Below, piece by piece: positions 1,052 through 10,877 of a stretch of DNA of 47,208 bases. The translations under genes were made by a program, and so were the position numbers. Position 1 is the stretch's first letter; each line of letters starts with the position of its first letter. The notes beneath the pieces were generated by a model that was not told the origin of the DNA, ran no database searches, and saw nothing but the letters and a program-made list of their open reading frames with translations. The stretch spans positions 1 through 47,208 of the forward strand of contig JACRLC010000079.1 in NCBI GenBank assembly GCA_016235425.1. The letters run 5' to 3'. This stretch comes from Chloroflexota bacterium (GTDB lineage: Bacteria; Chloroflexota; Anaerolineae; Anaerolineales; Villigracilaceae).

Positions 1052-1513
1052 TTATGGAATCCAGTTTGATAATACGTTCACAATCAAATCAGGATTTGCA
1101 GTGTCATTCGTTTTGAGATGAACCGCAAAGTTATGCGGGCCGTCCATGCCTTCGTGCATCATAAAGACACTGGATTCAACGATCGTGCTTTCGCCAGGCT
1201 TGAGTACCATCGAACCGATGGTTAATTGAGGAGGTCAGCACCCCTCCAGCACTTCGATGTATGGATCTTCTTTGAAGCGTAGTGTGCCGTTGCCTGTGTT
1301 GGTGACCTTGATGGCAAAGGTTTTGTTGACGCCGAATTTTACATCGCCGTAATCAATCTTTTCTTGATCCACCGCGATGGATGGTGTTCCGCCGCCATCG
1401 CCGCCTTGATTGGCAAAGAAAAATGCCGCAACAATCAGCAGGATTCCGCCGAGGAAAACAAGCGGCCAGGGGAAGGTTTTCCTTTGTTTTTGTCTCTTAT
1501 GTTTCTTGCTCAT
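1052..1513 (-). CDS. Predicted selenoprotein, DUF1573-like, with UGA at codon 93 (Cys-Sec motif)
   Basis: I read this as one 153-residue protein through an in-frame TGA at 1235-1237, ending at TAA 1052. Residues 1-12 are basic, about 15-36 form a membrane anchor, and then an Ig-like DUF1573-type beta domain runs past the UGA without a break in character. The junction is EGC-UGA-PPQLTIGS; relatives as I recall them have a second cysteine there (EGCCPP). Downstream lies FMMHEGMDGPH, a possible copper-binding Met/His cluster. A hairpin 12 bases after the UGA fits a bacterial SECIS. The start ATG 1513 has AGGAG and overlaps the upstream stop as ATGA. Sec reading is an inference; a plain nonsense mutation is the alternative. 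Other genes here end in TGA normally. Confidence 0.72.
1206..1222 (-). promoter_or_regulatory. Candidate SECIS element of the DUF1573-like gene
   Basis: In the mRNA, 12 bases after the UGA, a 17-base hairpin forms: ACCAUCG, loop GUU, CGAUGGU, seven perfect pairs. The UGA-to-loop distance is 19 bases and the loop starts with G, both within known rules for bacterial SECIS elements. The E. coli fdhF element is also 17 bases and starts 11 bases after its UGA. Confidence 0.68.
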
Positions 1514-2496
1514 CGAACTGCTCCTTGATAATTGAATTGAAAAGAGTATAGATACGCAACCAAGTCCCAGATTTGCTCTTCGGTAAAAATCGAGCCCCAC
1601 ATGGGCATGCCCGTGCCCATGCCGCCGCGCAGGATTTTTCCCTGCAACAATGCGGGACTCGCGCCAAGCATTCGTGCTGGGTCGGTGAAATCAACGGGAG
1701 TTTGCATCATCATATCTTCCGAGCCTGTCATCGTTTGCATGGAGGATTCACCTGACGCGGCGAGGTCATCCGCAAAGACTCCATTACCTGCGCCGTTCTC
1801 GCCGTGACAGGCCGCGCAGTTTTGGGCGTAGAGGCGCTGTCCATTTGCAAGGGATTCGGGCGTTGCATTAGATTGCCAGACGTAGGCAACTACATCCCAG
1901 CGCTGTGATTCTGTGAACGATGTGCTGGTCAGTTCATCAAATAGTTGGTAGGGCGAATGCGAGCGATAGAAATCAGGGGATTGGAGAATTGGGAGATTGG
2001 TTGAAAATTTTTGGCCGCGAATCGCCGAAGGTTTTTGAGAAGGGAGGATCGGCGCATCGTGCGGCGCGTCAATGTCGAGACCGAGGGAAACGTACAGTGG
2101 CGCGGGAACAGGCTGAGTGTCCACGTTTGAACCGCTGACTTCAATCGTGCCGCGCATCCGCCAGTGATTGAGTCCGCACCAGCGCGTGCAATAAAATGTG
2201 TAAATCCCAGGCTTGTCAAAAGTCAAAGTAATGTCAGCGACTTTGCCGGGCAGAACATCCACGCCCTGCATATCCATCTGACCCACAGCGAAACCATGTA
2301 CCACGTCGTCGGAGGTGAGATGCAAAGTTAATGGCTCGCCTGCATTTGCACGAATAACATCGGGACTCCATCCGCCATCTTCTGCGACTTTGGCATGGAT
2401 AAGCGGCGTACGCGCCCAGAGAAAGAGCGGCGTCCCGACCGCCCCCAAAACTGCCACCGTTATCAAGATGCGGGTGAGGAGTTCCGAGCGTTTCAT
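1510..2496 (-). CDS. CuA-type cupredoxin fused to cytochrome c
   Basis: A 328-residue exported or anchored protein: signal anchor at about 8-27, cupredoxin domain at about 40-122, linker, then class I cytochrome c. CuA-type ligands are visible: H67, C103, C107, H111 and M114 (CTRWCGLNHWRM). The heme site is CAACH at 227-231, with Met near 297 or 299 as likely sixth ligand. This is the layout of oxidase subunit II C-termini, but no subunit I is nearby. It probably passes electrons between the polyferredoxin or cupredoxin neighbours and an acceptor outside the membrane. Start ATG 2496 overlaps the upstream stop as ATGA. The linker (about 163-182) is coded partly by a low-complexity GGAGATTGG-type repeat. 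Confidence 0.85.
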   Translation of the reverse strand: MKRSELLTRILITVAVLGAVGTPLFLWARTPLIHAKVAEDGGWSPDVIRANAGEPLTLHLTSDDVVHGFAVGQMDMQGVDVLPGKVADITLTFDKPGIYTFYCTRWCGLNHWRMRGTIEVSGSNVDTQPVPAPLYVSLGLDIDAPHDAPILPSQKPSAIRGQKFSTNLPILQSPDFYRSHSPYQLFDELTSTSFTESQRWDVVAYVWQSNATPESLANGQRLYAQNCAACHGENGAGNGVFADDLAASGESSMQTMTGSEDMMMQTPVDFTDPARMLGASPALLQGKILRGGMGTGMPMWGSIFTEEQIWDLVAYLYSFQFNYQGAVR

Positions 2497-3947
2497 AGTA
2501 ATAACCAGAGCATGACCAGTGTGGCGGCGAAGCAAAATATAATGACAGGAATTGAAGACGTCTTTATTTCACTCGCGGCTTTTTGCGCCGTGCGTGCGGA
2601 CCAGATCAATCCGCCGACCAGCGCCAGCGTTTGTGCGGGCGCGAGAACGGATATGAGCATGGGTTGCCACGCGGCGTTCGCTGTGCCAAACAGATTCCAG
2701 CCGAGACCAAGCGGATCGGAGAGGGATGCAAAAATGTAAGTTGCGTTGGTGAGGACAAAAGATAAACTGAATGCCACCCAAAACATCAAACCGAGCGGTA
2801 TGAGTGCAGTTGCCAGAGAAGCAAATCGTTGTTTCAGTGAAAGGACGCTTTTCGTTTTTAGAATGCCGAGTGTAAAGAAGCCAGGAAGAATGACGAAGAT
2901 GATGGCAAGAAAAACAACGGCATACGTAAACCAGGCGCTTGTCCCAACGTTGTATGCCGCGTCTTTGAGCGCGCCCCAGGGGCCGAGTAACACACCTGCA
3001 TAAATCATGGCTGAACCGAGCATGATGAAGGCCTTGAAGGCTTCGTCAATTCTTGTAGATGGCTTTGCAAGGTCGGCAGAGAATGGGCGAAGATTGATGG
3101 CGATGTTATCGTGCGGGCAGGTGCGGATACATTCCATGCACAAGCCGCAATAGGTGTTTTTTGTTAATCCGCCGGGGAAGACATCCCACGGACAACCGTA
3201 GCCCGAATTCGCGCTGCGAAGTCCCAGCGTTCTTCTGGGAAGCGGAGAATCGAGTAGCCCGCGTTTCCCGAAGGGGGGCGTATCGCGAAGTCCCCGAAGG
3301 GGGAAACCCAAAGTCGAAGCGCCGTTGTAGCAGGGCTTGCCTTCGCAGGTCACACAGACCTGCTTGTTTTTGATTCGCAATTCGATTGGGGCAGTCTGGG
3401 AATACAGACCGATAAACCCACCGACGGGACAGAGGTAGCGACAAAAAGCGCGGCGCTCGAAAACCATGCTCAGTCCAATTGCGGCGAAGAGCATGGCGGC
3501 GAGCACAATGGAAGTGATATTTGGCGTGGTGAGCAGGACACTGCTAAAGAGAGCCAGCAAAAGGAAGGAAATATTTTGCATCCAAATGTTGCGGAGGGAT
3601 TTGGGCCAGCGCAAGTTAAGCCCCCTGCCCTTCGACTTCGCTCCGCTCCGCTCAGGGCGTAATATTGCGCCGCGTTGAAGCCATTCACCAGGAAGCGGAA
3701 TTGGGCAGACCGCGCACCAGCCGCGCCCGAAAAAGGGGACTGCCACAAGAATGAGGATCGCCCACCACGCGATCCACACGAAAACAATGCTGAAATTGCG
3801 GCTTCCAACAGGTGTACCAATGAGTCCTGCAAGGATGGCGAAGATATATCCAATCAGCATGACAATAAATACCGCCAATTGTGGGTAGCGGCTTTTTAGC
3901 GCGTTCTTTATGAAGGGACTACGAGTAAATTCAATGCGGTTCGACAT
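2493..3947 (-). CDS. NosR/NapH-like membrane polyferredoxin (4Fe-4S)
   Basis: 484 residues with about eight to nine membrane segments and cysteine motifs like the NosR C-terminal half: CAVCP at 78-82, CRYLCP at 169-174, then a ferredoxin region with C198, C201, C206 and C252 and a clean CGLCMECIRTCP at 267-278. The N-terminal flavin domain of true NosR is absent. The likely role is moving electrons from the quinone pool or cytoplasm to the periplasmic cupredoxins. Two segments look inserted relative to the paralog at 8849-10234: residues about 96-110 and about 210-249. Both are coded by GC-rich palindromic repeat DNA and keep the frame. It starts two bases after the upstream stop. Confidence 0.85.
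   Translation of the reverse strand: MSNRIEFTRSPFIKNALKSRYPQLAVFIVMLIGYIFAILAGLIGTPVGSRNFSIVFVWIAWWAILILVAVPFFGRGWCAVCPIPLPGEWLQRGAILRPERSGAKSKGRGLNLRWPKSLRNIWMQNISFLLLALFSSVLLTTPNITSIVLAAMLFAAIGLSMVFERRAFCRYLCPVGGFIGLYSQTAPIELRIKNKQVCVTCEGKPCYNGASTLGFPLRGLRDTPPFGKRGLLDSPLPRRTLGLRSANSGYGCPWDVFPGGLTKNTYCGLCMECIRTCPHDNIAINLRPFSADLAKPSTRIDEAFKAFIMLGSAMIYAGVLLGPWGALKDAAYNVGTSAWFTYAVVFLAIIFVILPGFFTLGILKTKSVLSLKQRFASLATALIPLGLMFWVAFSLSFVLTNATYIFASLSDPLGLGWNLFGTANAAWQPMLISVLAPAQTLALVGGLIWSARTAQKAASEIKTSSIPVIIFCFAATLVMLWLLL
3200..3320 (-). repeat. In-frame repeat insertion within the polyferredoxin gene
   Basis: About 120 bases are built from short palindromes (CCCCGAAGGGG-like and CCCAGAAGAACGCTGGG-like). 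They code for a roughly 40-residue low-conservation stretch between the CYNGA and GYGCPW parts of the ferredoxin domain. Similar CCCCGAAGGGG units occur at 46927-46990. Confidence 0.6.
3630..3659 (-). repeat. Short CTTCGACTTCGCTC repeat (family C) in coding sequence
   Basis: The unit matches those at 12582-12604 and 34646-34668, with an extra CCGCT duplication. It keeps the polyferredoxin frame and adds about ten residues (PERSGAKSKG). Confidence 0.6.
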
Positions 3948-3949
3948 AT

Positions 3950-4414
3950 TCAGCGTTTTTCAACCAGCATTCTTTCTTTGTGAAAGGAAAAAGGAAAGAA
4001 ACCGATCAAGCCCAGAACGGCAAGTCCGATGGAACGAAAGAGCCAACTGTTCGTTCCCACTGTCAATCTGCCGATCATGAACGGGTGCATGGCTCCACAG
4101 GTGACGTTGCATCGAAAGCGGAATGAGCCTGGCTTGTCTGCGATAAAGGTCAACGACGCGGTCTGGCCCGGATCGGCTTCGACAGAAATATTGTAGCCAT
4201 CCACATACAGCCCATGCACCACATCTGCGCTGACGAGTTGAATGGTCACCGTATCGCCGGGGTTGACTTTAAACTCAGAGGGAGAGTATGCAAATTGCCG
4301 CGCTTCAATCCGAAAGGTCCGCTCTTGAGGCGCAATAGACTGGACTGGGAATGGCGCAAACGCCACAACCAGTCCAGCCGCTGCCAGGAGGAGAAGAAAG
4401 AAGCGGGAGTTCAT
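3950..4414 (-). CDS. Membrane-anchored CuA-type cupredoxin
   Basis: 154 residues: signal sequence at about 4-25, a cupredoxin fold, then a C-terminal membrane helix at about 123-141. A CuA-like ligand set is present: H67, C102, C106, H110 and M113 (CNVTCGAMHPFM). The family includes oxidase subunit II and NosZ CuA domains, which accept one electron at a time from cytochromes. The second CuA-type protein two genes downstream makes a paired system likely. I prefer ATG 4414, which gives a clean signal peptide and lies five bases past the upstream stop, over ATG 4441. Neither has a strong ribosome site, so coupling to the upstream gene is probable. Confidence 0.82.
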   Translation of the reverse strand: MNSRFFLLLLAAAGLVVAFAPFPVQSIAPQERTFRIEARQFAYSPSEFKVNPGDTVTIQLVSADVVHGLYVDGYNISVEADPGQTASLTFIADKPGSFRFRCNVTCGAMHPFMIGRLTVGTNSWLFRSIGLAVLGLIGFFPFSFHKERMLVEKR

Positions 4415-4418
4415 CGGC

Positions 4419-4862
4419 TTAAGGAATGTTCGACGGCCCATATTTGGAATACGTCACATCAATGGTTGCCCTGGCTTCCTGAGGACTTTTTCCTTCCCGC
4501 AACATCCGCATGACATCCTGGGTAATGTCCACGCAGATGGAACAGCCCAGGGCGTGGTTGTCGAAGGTGATGGCACCTTTTTCATCCACACTCGAAACAT
4601 AGCAGGAGTAATTCGATGTATGGCCGATTCCTCCGCAACCGCAATAGCACGGGATGTTCTGCATGACGTCAGGATTGGCCGCGGCAAATTGATAAGCCGT
4701 CTGCACCGTCACAGGCGCGGATTGAACCTCCGCTGGCATTTGATCCATCGGCGTCATGCGCAAATCGTCTGCTTTACTTTGCGCGGAACAGGCGGATATT
4801 GCAGTGGTTAACAAAACCACTATCATGGAGAGAAATGGAAGTTTGCGTGTCTTTGAAAACAT
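4419..4862 (-). CDS. PCYCGC-motif lipoprotein
   Basis: 147 residues with a lipobox (AISAC, Cys25). The family signature PCYCGCG is at 71-77, with GHTSNYSCYV following and a further CSIC pair at 107-110, so six or more cysteines could hold metal or form disulfides. The PCYCGC family has no agreed function, and I infer metal or redox handling from its place as first gene of the cupredoxin operon. Start ATG 4862 has GGAGG seven bases upstream. An in-frame upstream extension has no signal logic and was dropped. Confidence 0.82.
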   Translation of the reverse strand: MFSKTRKLPFLSMIVVLLTTAISACSAQSKADDLRMTPMDQMPAEVQSAPVTVQTAYQFAAANPDVMQNIPCYCGCGGIGHTSNYSCYVSSVDEKGAITFDNHALGCSICVDITQDVMRMLREGKSPQEARATIDVTYSKYGPSNIP

Positions 4863-4939
4863 ATTGGGCCTCCGTGATCGGATAGCCCAATGGTAGCCCG
4901 ACAATTCAATTGTCTCCAGCGCAGGATGGCGGGAGGCAC

Positions 4940-4959
4940 AATACGCCAAATGGCTTATG
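4940..4959. promoter_or_regulatory. 20-bp partly palindromic motif, site 1
   Basis: AATACGCCAAATGGCTTATG, about 80 bases upstream of the PCYCGC gene. It matches the site at 5542-5561 at 17 of 20 positions, with a GCCA-TGGC-like core. It could be a shared operator or a decayed repeat. Confidence 0.35.
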
Positions 4960-4983
4960 ACAAATGTCCTCGCGATTTTGACG

Positions 4984-5196
4984 CTAACTTCCTCTTTCTT
5001 TATGATGTGAATTGCGGCGGATATTCCATACACCAAACACGATCACAGCCACCGCCACACCAATCAGCCCAACAAGGAAAACTGATGCCGATTCAAAATT
5101 GAGCCAATTCTTCCCAAATGACCAGAACAGAATGACGCCGATCAGAAACGCGGAAGCACAGGAAATGGCGGGCAAGTGTGCTTTACCATCTTTCAT
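4984..5196 (-). CDS. Small membrane protein
   Basis: 70 residues with two membrane segments (about 9-25 and 38-58) and a basic, histidine-containing tail (RRNSHHKERG). Start ATG 5196 has AGGAAAG upstream. No family is recognised. It lies between the copper operon and another small membrane protein on the same strand, so it may be cotranscribed with them. Confidence 0.6.
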   Translation of the reverse strand: MKDGKAHLPAISCASAFLIGVILFWSFGKNWLNFESASVFLVGLIGVAVAVIVFGVWNIRRNSHHKERGS

Positions 5197-8848: not shown

Positions 8849-10234
8849 TCACATTCTCATTGCCATCGGAAGCATGAAAAGGTAAACATTCATCACGGTG
8901 AGAAGGACGATCAATACCGCGTAGGGCGCAAAGGTCCCCCAGACTTTGCCTTCAGCGCCAGCATGATTCGACTTTGCGATACGATAGGCGGCGTAGAGCG
9001 AGCCGATAAAGCCGAGCGCGAGCAGACCGAATTGCAGAACCCGGATGGTATCCATGCCCACCAGCGCGGGCGACGCGCCGTGAATTGCTTCGCCGAACAA
9101 TGCCATCGCAGTATAGAAAATGGATTTGCCTTCCGCCAGCAGGTGGAAAAGATTGTGGGCAATGTGACCCGCAACGTCCAACGCGATGATGGCATATCCG
9201 AAGCGGGTAAAGTTTTCCACAAAAGAGACTTTGTTGAATTTGCCCGCCACCCACGAAGCGAGGCCAAGCAAAGCTACGGGGATGATGATGGCAATGGCAA
9301 ACGTAATGCTGAACGTGACGGCGTAATTGGTGGTGCCTGTCGCCTGTTCCAGCCAGTTCAACATGGAACCCCACACTTCCAGCATGGTCACGTTTTGCAC
9401 GAAGACGATGCCCATGATGACCGCCGAGAGGAAGGCTTCCTCCATTTTGGGCTTGCGGATGAACCACAATTCTTTCGTCGGCGGACGCATAGTCAGTTGG
9501 ATCGAGTCATTCGGGCAGTTCTTGATACAGTCCGCGCAGATCACGCAGTTGGCATTGGATGTCATCGTCTTGGGGAACTCGAACAATGGACAGCCTGGCG
9601 CTTTCTCCGTCCCTTTGAAGCAGGAAGCGGCTGTGCACGCGGCGCAGATTTCCGGCGTGCCGCGCAAAGCCAGCATACCAGTGCGGGCATAGTTGCCGGA
9701 TAAACCGCCGAGAAAACAAACGTGACGGCAGAAGGTGCGGCGTTCAAAGAATGAGCCAGAGGCAATCACGCCAGTGGTGAGCGTCAGCATGAGAACGCCA
9801 GAGCCAAAGGGATTTTCAACCACACCCCAGACATGATCGCTCCACGTGATGAAGATGAACAGCGCGTCGATGATCCAGATGCCATATTTTTTCAGGAACT
9901 TGGGGACGGGACGATTATTGCCAACAAATTTTTGCACCAGGTCGTTGATCGTTGCAAACGGACAGATCGCACACCAGAATCGCCCGAGGAACAAAAAGAT
10001 GATCGGGATGAGCGGCCACCACAGCACCCAGGTGAGAGCGGTGCCAAGATTATCGTGCGCGGATTCCGGCCCAAGCAGTAATTGGAACATGATGACCATG
10101 AAGACGATCAGTGTAGGCCATTGGATAATGCCGGGGAACCATTTACTGCGCATGAGTCTGTCAATCGGTTTGATCTGCAGAAGATTGCCTCCCGCAAAGA
10201 TGCTTTTGTTTTGTGGTTTGAGTTCAACAGCCAT
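8849..10234 (-). CDS. NosR/NapH-like membrane polyferredoxin, second copy
   Basis: 461 residues with many membrane segments. It shares the layout of the protein at 2493-3947: a CAICP motif near 85-90, CRHVC near 168-172, then C-x2-C-x4-C spacing and a ferredoxin motif CVICADCIKNCP near 230-241. It lacks the low-complexity insertions of the other copy. It probably carries electrons across or along the membrane to a copper or heme protein. The ribosome site GGGGAA is two bases downstream of the FixH-like stop, so the two genes are cotranscribed. Confidence 0.85.
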   Translation of the reverse strand: MAVELKPQNKSIFAGGNLLQIKPIDRLMRSKWFPGIIQWPTLIVFMVIMFQLLLGPESAHDNLGTALTWVLWWPLIPIIFLFLGRFWCAICPFATINDLVQKFVGNNRPVPKFLKKYGIWIIDALFIFITWSDHVWGVVENPFGSGVLMLTLTTGVIASGSFFERRTFCRHVCFLGGLSGNYARTGMLALRGTPEICAACTAASCFKGTEKAPGCPLFEFPKTMTSNANCVICADCIKNCPNDSIQLTMRPPTKELWFIRKPKMEEAFLSAVIMGIVFVQNVTMLEVWGSMLNWLEQATGTTNYAVTFSITFAIAIIIPVALLGLASWVAGKFNKVSFVENFTRFGYAIIALDVAGHIAHNLFHLLAEGKSIFYTAMALFGEAIHGASPALVGMDTIRVLQFGLLALGFIGSLYAAYRIAKSNHAGAEGKVWGTFAPYAVLIVLLTVMNVYLFMLPMAMRM

Positions 10235-10235
10235 G

Positions 10236-10877
10236 TTATTCCCCGCCTTTCACGGTGATGGATTGCTTCTTGATCATGCCTGCCGATGCGACCAGCGCAA
10301 TATTGACCACGACGAAACTCCACAGCACGACTGTCTTGGAATTTGTCCCAGGAATTTCAACGATAAAATCGGCTTGAAGCATTTCGCCGTTGGCATGGAA
10401 CATGACATGCACGTCATGTTTGCCCGACGATGCGAGATGTGTTTCGACCATGTACATCCCGTGTTCATCCGACTCCGTCATTGAGATGGGATTTGCAATT
10501 TCTTCATCGTGGGTCGGCATGTCAGGGACCTCTGTCGCAGGCGCACCCATCTCCATTCCAGGCATGGAGTCATGTTGTTGTTCAGCGCCATGCGAGTCCG
10601 TTTCAGATTCAGCATGTTCATCAGATTTTGGCGCGATCAGGATTTCCACCTCAACATTTTTTACGGGCATGCCCATGCTGTCTGTGAGCGTGACGATGAT
10701 GGTATTCTCGCCTTTCGCCCATTCGTTCTGGCTGGTCAGGGTAACATGATATCCATTGATTTCCATCTCCAGTGGATGTCCGCCATCCCCTTCGTTTGCC
10801 AGCACGGTATAGGGATTTGCAAACAGGATGGTAATTATGAAAAGCAAAGCCGAACTTGTGTAGAGAAGCCGTTTCAT
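10236..10877 (-). CDS. FixH/YtkA-like exported protein
   Basis: 213 residues: signal peptide at about 4-27, a beta-rich YtkA/FixH-type domain, and a C-terminal membrane helix at about 183-203. A Met/His-rich insert (HDSMPGMEMG, DMPTHDEE) sits in mid-domain and could bind copper. Related proteins help cytochrome oxidase or copper-site assembly. GGAGG is four bases from the ATG. Its start codon overlaps the end of a tiny upstream reading frame. Confidence 0.78.
   Translation of the reverse strand: MKRLLYTSSALLFIITILFANPYTVLANEGDGGHPLEMEINGYHVTLTSQNEWAKGENTIIVTLTDSMGMPVKNVEVEILIAPKSDEHAESETDSHGAEQQHDSMPGMEMGAPATEVPDMPTHDEEIANPISMTESDEHGMYMVETHLASSGKHDVHVMFHANGEMLQADFIVEIPGTNSKTVVLWSFVVVNIALVASAGMIKKQSITVKGGE

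Follow-up and report, generated by a model that had tools for sequence, protein, structure and literature searches.

A predicted selenoprotein with an adjacent Cys-Sec pair, encoded with CuA-type proteins in Chloroflexota

Results

The UGA-containing gene and its operon

The window, by which we mean the whole 47,208-nucleotide stretch of Chloroflexota DNA that was analysed, carries on its minus strand a 153-codon frame with one internal TGA, preceded on the same strand by four operon genes. The features discussed below are as follows.

1052..1513, minus strand: predicted selenoprotein coding sequence, 153 residues, Sec at residue 93; frame conserved on both sides of the TGA
1513-1511, 1513-1055 and 1054-1052, minus strand: start codon ATG, sense codons and stop codon TAA of this reading frame
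1235..1237 (read 1237-1235), minus strand: predicted Sec codon UGA, codon 93, motif EGC-U-PP; TGA in 72 of 79 loci from named genomes, Cys in 7
1206..1222, minus strand: predicted SECIS hairpin, 7-bp stem with GUU loop; stem with compensatory changes, loop opening with GU in all 98 sequences, published bSECIS constraints satisfied
1133..1159, minus strand: Met/His cluster M119-x3-M123-x3-H127, all three residues invariant in alignments A1 and A2
1409..1468, minus strand: predicted N-terminal helix, probably transmembrane, residues 16-35, in a lower-confidence part of the AlphaFold2 model
1510..2535, minus strand: CuA-domain and cytochrome c protein (CTRWCGLNHWRM, CAACH), by domain/family profiles and motif
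2493..3947, minus strand: NapH-like membrane polyferredoxin (Fer4_5), by domain/family profiles
3950..4441, minus strand: CuA-type cupredoxin (CNVTCGAMHPFM), by domain/family profiles and motif
4419..5036, minus strand: PCYCGC/CYCXC protein, Cys form; the listed TTG probably lies upstream of the true start

The TGA is the only one in the frame and is followed by 60 sense codons and a stop, so that the 61 codons of open frame claimed in the original prediction are confirmed with the stop included; its position numbers are also correct, and the gene is placed on the minus strand. Residues encoded beyond the TGA are conserved, with M119, M123, H127 and W151 invariant both in alignment A1 (27 of 30 loci, excluding L016, L022 and L032) and in alignment A2 (the window protein and 55 of 72 references), as are G91, C92, position 93 and P94. 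In a translated alignment of 30 loci, U stands at the Sec column in 27; the remaining three (L011, L033 and L037) had been translated from the wrong strand.

All four operon genes lie upstream of the Sec gene, and the stop codon of the CuA-cytochrome c gene overlaps its start (ATGA). The arrangement recurs: at 51 of the 79 loci (45 Sec, 6 Cys) the whole set of four sits on the gene's own strand no more than 6 kb away, and a frame with CuA and CxxCH motifs stands directly upstream of the gene in 46. Thirteen loci have none of the four in that range and orientation, and 9 have none anywhere in the available stretch, some of these stretches being short; at two loci without the four genes nearby (L107 and L113), the gene adjoins a P-type ATPase with heavy-metal domains. 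The two SCO1-SenC matches of the window's own genome adjoin another COX2 gene on contig 62, so no Sco is seen in the operon itself. A search for Sec in the PCYCGC copies gave nothing credible, since 60 of 61 pattern matches lack U, these copies being Cys forms, and the single U match is spurious, on the wrong strand. Elsewhere in the window (8849-10877, minus strand), a second Fer4_5 polyferredoxin gene lies beside a YtkA-like gene, and homologues of both also neighbour the Sec gene at certain other loci.

TGA is the usual state at the column and Cys the alternative

Among 101 related genomes the gene is patchy, with a match in 33 and none in the one genome of the same genus. Of the 38 match rows, 37 contain an in-frame TGA (one of them, G045, also a TAA); the row without one is a fragment of 57 residues. 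At the level of the class, 88 of 396 genomes have a match, and 82 of 91 rows at E < 1e-20 show TGA, a count made by hand in which the codon position was checked in those loci whose sequence was retrieved; of the eight long class rows without TGA, the residue was read for G225 (GCC). At phylum level, 21 of 400 genomes match at 1e-10, and 11 of 12 loci outside the class have U in the motif, the other (L180) giving no match to the search pattern.

The 79 named-genome loci, which include the strain Thermanaerothrix daxensis GNS-1 (L100), carry TGA in 72 cases and Cys in 7, with no other state. They were found with two patterns, of which the one spanning the Sec column was written with Cys, which means that TGA forms had no advantage in the scan. 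The original prediction had placed the TGA where relatives have the second Cys of EGCCPP; a homologue comparison bears out Cys or TGA at this column in 79 of 79 loci, although Cys is found in only the seven and the usual state is TGA. The recurrence of the TGA in many separate genomes also bears out its reality: a sequencing error was considered and rejected on this ground. Beyond Chloroflexota, the Actinomycetota drafts L114, L115, L125 and L127 carry the TGA form, and Gemmatimonadota carry the Cys form.

In a tree of 71 rows, Cys forms are scattered in several places among the TGA forms, with weak support; the tree requires at least five Sec/Cys changes, of which the starred branches force just one. 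Repeated change between Sec and Cys is therefore likely, not proven. At L116 and at G225:C380:18076-19063 (L141), adjacent paralogues with GCU-PP and GCC-PQ form a natural Sec/Cys pair. The copy at L080, labelled Pseudomonadota, groups with the Chloroflexota copy L058 and perhaps lies on a mis-binned contig. Damaged extra copies were seen at G303:C1:4125080-4125534 (a frame change) and G008:C1:3108774-3108944 (a short C-terminal piece); each of these two genomes also contains a longer copy.

A hairpin downstream of the UGA covaries and accompanies the TGA form

Immediately downstream, the hairpin ACCATCG-GTT-CGATGGT spans 17 nt and begins 12 nt 3' of the TGA, with a 3-nt loop that starts with G and a UGA-to-loop distance of 19 nt, reproducing every hairpin figure of the original prediction. 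As given in a 2026 review, bacterial SECIS elements have a stem of 4-16 bp, a loop of 3-9 nt with G in the first two positions, a distance of 16-37 nt from the UGA and a minimum free energy (MFE) of at most -7.5 kcal/mol (PMC13188914); the window hairpin lies within these published limits (7 bp, 3 nt, G first, 19 nt, -8.6 kcal/mol). The MFE, computed on 35 nt, corresponds to z = -2.07, with 7 of 200 shuffles as stable or better, and by itself this folding energy is only modest evidence for a SECIS.

Comparison among relatives takes it well past what chance would give. We selected TGA forms by protein motif, not by hairpin, and counted each distinct sequence once, since certain genes entered the set twice, through two collections. 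Among the 98 distinct TGA forms, none has lost any of the five inner stem pairs or the GU that opens the loop; 84 show 7 of 7 pairs and 14 show 6 of 7, whereas the eight distinct Cys forms retain from 1 to 6 of the 7 pairs and none has the full stem. The Cys form that keeps six pairs (L113) has its mismatch inside the stem; another (L111:7977-8471), with the GU loop start and 5 of 7 pairs, resembles a SECIS that decayed after a Sec-to-Cys change. Stem variants of the TGA forms include ACCATCG/CGATGGT, GTCGTCG/CGACGAC and GTCATCG/CGATGAC, and in the deeper relatives L166 and L172-L174 one more inner pair is altered on both sides. Codon choice beneath the stem hardly varies: Gly is GGT in 75 of 75, and Ile ATC in 72 of 72, of the distinct sequences that have those residues.

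On alignment A3 (56 of 79 DNA references), the stem has a covariation score of 0.326, where shuffles average 0.171 and 0 of 500 score as high; 98.0% of cells are paired, compared with at most 69.6% in slid controls. Of the five measures in all, two fail to beat the shuffles: double changes affect 4 of 7 stem pairs versus 3.0 in shuffles (93 of 500 as high), and pair types number 6 versus 7.0 (500 of 500 as high). Single-sequence folds of a longer stretch give a different best structure in a few relatives (L022, L034 and L070). When the own genome was searched with the SECIS model R1, scoring 150 of 3471 first-look candidates, this site reached 62 bits and the next among those scored, at 21.9 bits on contig 70, has its TGA out of the gene frame; further SECIS elements may exist.

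The machinery for selenocysteine is encoded in the genome

The original prediction hinged on selA, selB, selC and selD, and all four are found in the genome above cut-off (selA 546.8 bits, selB 332.8 bits, selD 353 bits, and a tRNA-Sec with anticodon UCA at 70 bits). The SelD gene itself (G000:C20:23311-24243, L048) has an in-frame TGA in ACAG-U and is in turn a predicted selenoprotein gene. We examined selB in 40 of the 79 loci, comprising all 7 Cys and 33 TGA forms, and found it above cut-off in 26 of the 33 TGA-form genomes and 5 of the 7 Cys-form genomes. One of the seven TGA-form genomes without it has selB as two adjacent pieces, and the others may be incomplete drafts. The presence of selB in Cys-form genomes indicates that the change to Cys needs no loss of the machinery.

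A predicted Ig fold of HYDIN/PapD type

AlphaFold2 run on A2 (mean pLDDT 87.0, pTM 0.70) places a helix at residues 16-35, followed by a beta sandwich that starts near residue 45; the helix is probably transmembrane, judging from its hydrophobic composition. The model matches the structure 2qsv (Z = 13.0, rmsd 2.6, 108 aligned) as well as HYDIN, CEP192 and PapD-like domains, and a sequence search of solved structures returns weak, repeated HYDIN-type matches. Consistent with this, PF22544 (HYDIN_VesB_CFA65-like Ig) scores just above its Pfam cut-off (26.4 versus 25.5 bits, E = 8.2e-06). The label "DUF1573-like" in the original prediction holds in part: PF07610 (DUF1573) does match weakly, but at 20.0 bits it falls below the gathering cut-off of 26.1, and a HYDIN/PapD-like Ig domain fits better. 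Three relatives pass PF07610 at 26.3-27.6 bits in a search of eight genomes, and the window protein finds no family of its own in NCBIfam, where the match is generic and sub-threshold. Our prediction is therefore a single helix at the N terminus followed by an Ig domain of HYDIN/PapD type.

Is the UGA a stop, a reassigned codon or a Sec codon?

Were the UGA a true stop, the protein would be the 92-residue product and the remainder would be decayed or separately started. A few damaged copies look that way, namely the G008 fragment, the frame-shifted G303 copy and G045 with its extra TAA, but the residues past the UGA that are invariant in A1 and A2 (M119, M123, H127, W151) speak against decay, and a restart at codon 102 is not general because 9 of 81 distinct TGA forms have ACG in place of its ATG. 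Since, in addition, the seven non-TGA loci have Cys and the hairpin covaries, we regard a true stop as highly improbable. Reassignment of UGA to another amino acid would likewise explain a frame that is open across it; however, three neighbouring operon genes end in TGA, tRNA-Sec(UCA), SelA, SelB and SelD are all present, the alternative residue in relatives is Cys, and an intact hairpin accompanies the TGA, which leaves this reading scarcely credible. Pseudogene, plain stop and code reassignment were accordingly all rejected, on conservation past the UGA, the Cys alternatives, the covarying hairpin and the TGA-ending neighbours.

On these comparisons codon 93 is almost certainly a selenocysteine codon, and this small, apparently membrane-anchored protein very probably reads its internal UGA as Sec. 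SelB with Sec-tRNA(UCA) would use the hairpin just 3' of the UGA to insert Sec at codon 93, and the read-through product would be the 153-residue protein. We predict it to consist of a short tail, a single membrane helix near the N terminus and, outside the cytoplasm, a HYDIN/PapD-like Ig domain bearing an adjacent Cys92-Sec93 pair together with the conserved M119, M123 and H127.

Discussion

What the Cys-Sec pair may do

Sco-type proteins handle copper or keep thiols reduced for cytochrome oxidase. The neighbouring genes and the conserved Met/His residues suggest a comparable part here, in which the protein would serve the operon's CuA proteins by binding Cu(I), by keeping their cysteines reduced, or both; we put such a role in copper handling or thiol reduction (copper/CuA maturation) at about even. 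Direct binding of copper by selenium is a more tentative proposal. Equally speculative is the fuller picture of a selenium-based copper metallochaperone, in which an Ig-like domain would bind copper directly through Cys-Sec, two Met and one His and would load or reduce CuA, in a family so far absent from lists, common in Anaerolineae and present in other phyla.

The protein could instead be a selenoprotein whose Cys-Sec pair serves general thiol or peroxide redox chemistry, or detoxification of other soft metals, and not CuA maturation. Adjacent CU motifs are listed for the metal-related SaoL, HgcA, SaoC, MbdU and a CopZ-family protein in the tables of the 2026 review (PMC13188914), and P-type ATPase homologues flank 29 and 33 of the 79 loci in two queries, many of them of low identity and not copper-specific; yet the commonest neighbours are CuA-motif and cupredoxin genes, also at the Cys-form loci of Gemmatimonadota, and we think this alternative possible but on the unlikely side. 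Less probable still is that the protein belongs to the operon's redox complex, as a structural or electron-transfer subunit with Cys-Sec as a relay: encoding together with polyferredoxin, cytochrome c and CuA proteins, with the CuA and CxxCH frame directly upstream in 46 of 79 loci, would suit it, but L107 and L113 have none of the four genes nearby and a P-type ATPase with heavy-metal domains adjoins instead. Overall, we consider it highly probable that the gene encodes a selenoprotein, for which service to the operon's CuA proteins is the likeliest role.

Relation to known systems

A selenoprotein with a DUF1573 domain (PF07610) and the Sec motif UGC is listed in the tables of two reviews (PMC9312934 and PMC13188914). 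The listed protein shares the PF07610 assignment, which in the window protein is a weak match, and differs by the table descriptions in its motif, UGC against GCU-PP. The 2026 review counts 119 families and subfamilies in its table, and where proteins share an architecture but differ in the position of Sec it assigns them to separate subfamilies (PMC13188914). Neither the 2026 nor the 2022 table contains another DUF1573 entry or a HYDIN- or Ig-like one, and searches of open-licence PubMed Central on selenoproteins in Chloroflexota or Anaerolineae, or with DUF1573, listed no title on this protein. The original statement that no selenoprotein of this type is described thus survives for the GCU type, as far as those two tables go, and fails for the DUF1573 label, under which a UGC type is listed.

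By Pfam and structure match, the window protein is predicted to share with HYDIN/VesB/CFA65-like Ig domains (PF22544) an ASH/PapD/MSP-like fold. We know of no selenium or copper site in HYDIN- or 2qsv-type structures. SCO1/SenC would be an analogue by function, given the similar job for CuA sites hypothesised here, but it is thioredoxin-like with CxxxC, whereas the window protein is a predicted beta sandwich with adjacent Cys-Sec; its sequence has no CxxxC and PF02630 is not among its Pfam matches. CopZ-family form 2, SaoL, HgcA, SaoC and MbdU share adjacent Cys-Sec and metal-related names but, by table description, have other domain assignments (PMC13188914). The listed (seleno)protein family CYCXC/OS_HP4 (PF13798, NF041379; PMC13188914) is encoded in the same operon but is a different protein, and its window copy is a Cys form scoring 68.9 against the NF041379 cut-off of 90. 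Together, these comparisons place the protein among bacterial SECIS-dependent selenoproteins, probably as a new family or, failing that, a new subfamily.

Implications

Where the UGA is read as a stop, genes of this family are annotated too short. Sec would here sit on an Ig-like fold, whereas most characterised selenoproteins are thioredoxin-like according to the 2026 review (PMC13188914). Copper-related selenoproteins are already listed there (the CopZ family and a Cu/Zn transporter; PMC13188914), and the present protein would add a link between selenium and extracytoplasmic CuA-type proteins. To the bacterial selenoproteome it would add a well-supported family whose members mostly carry Sec and only occasionally Cys.
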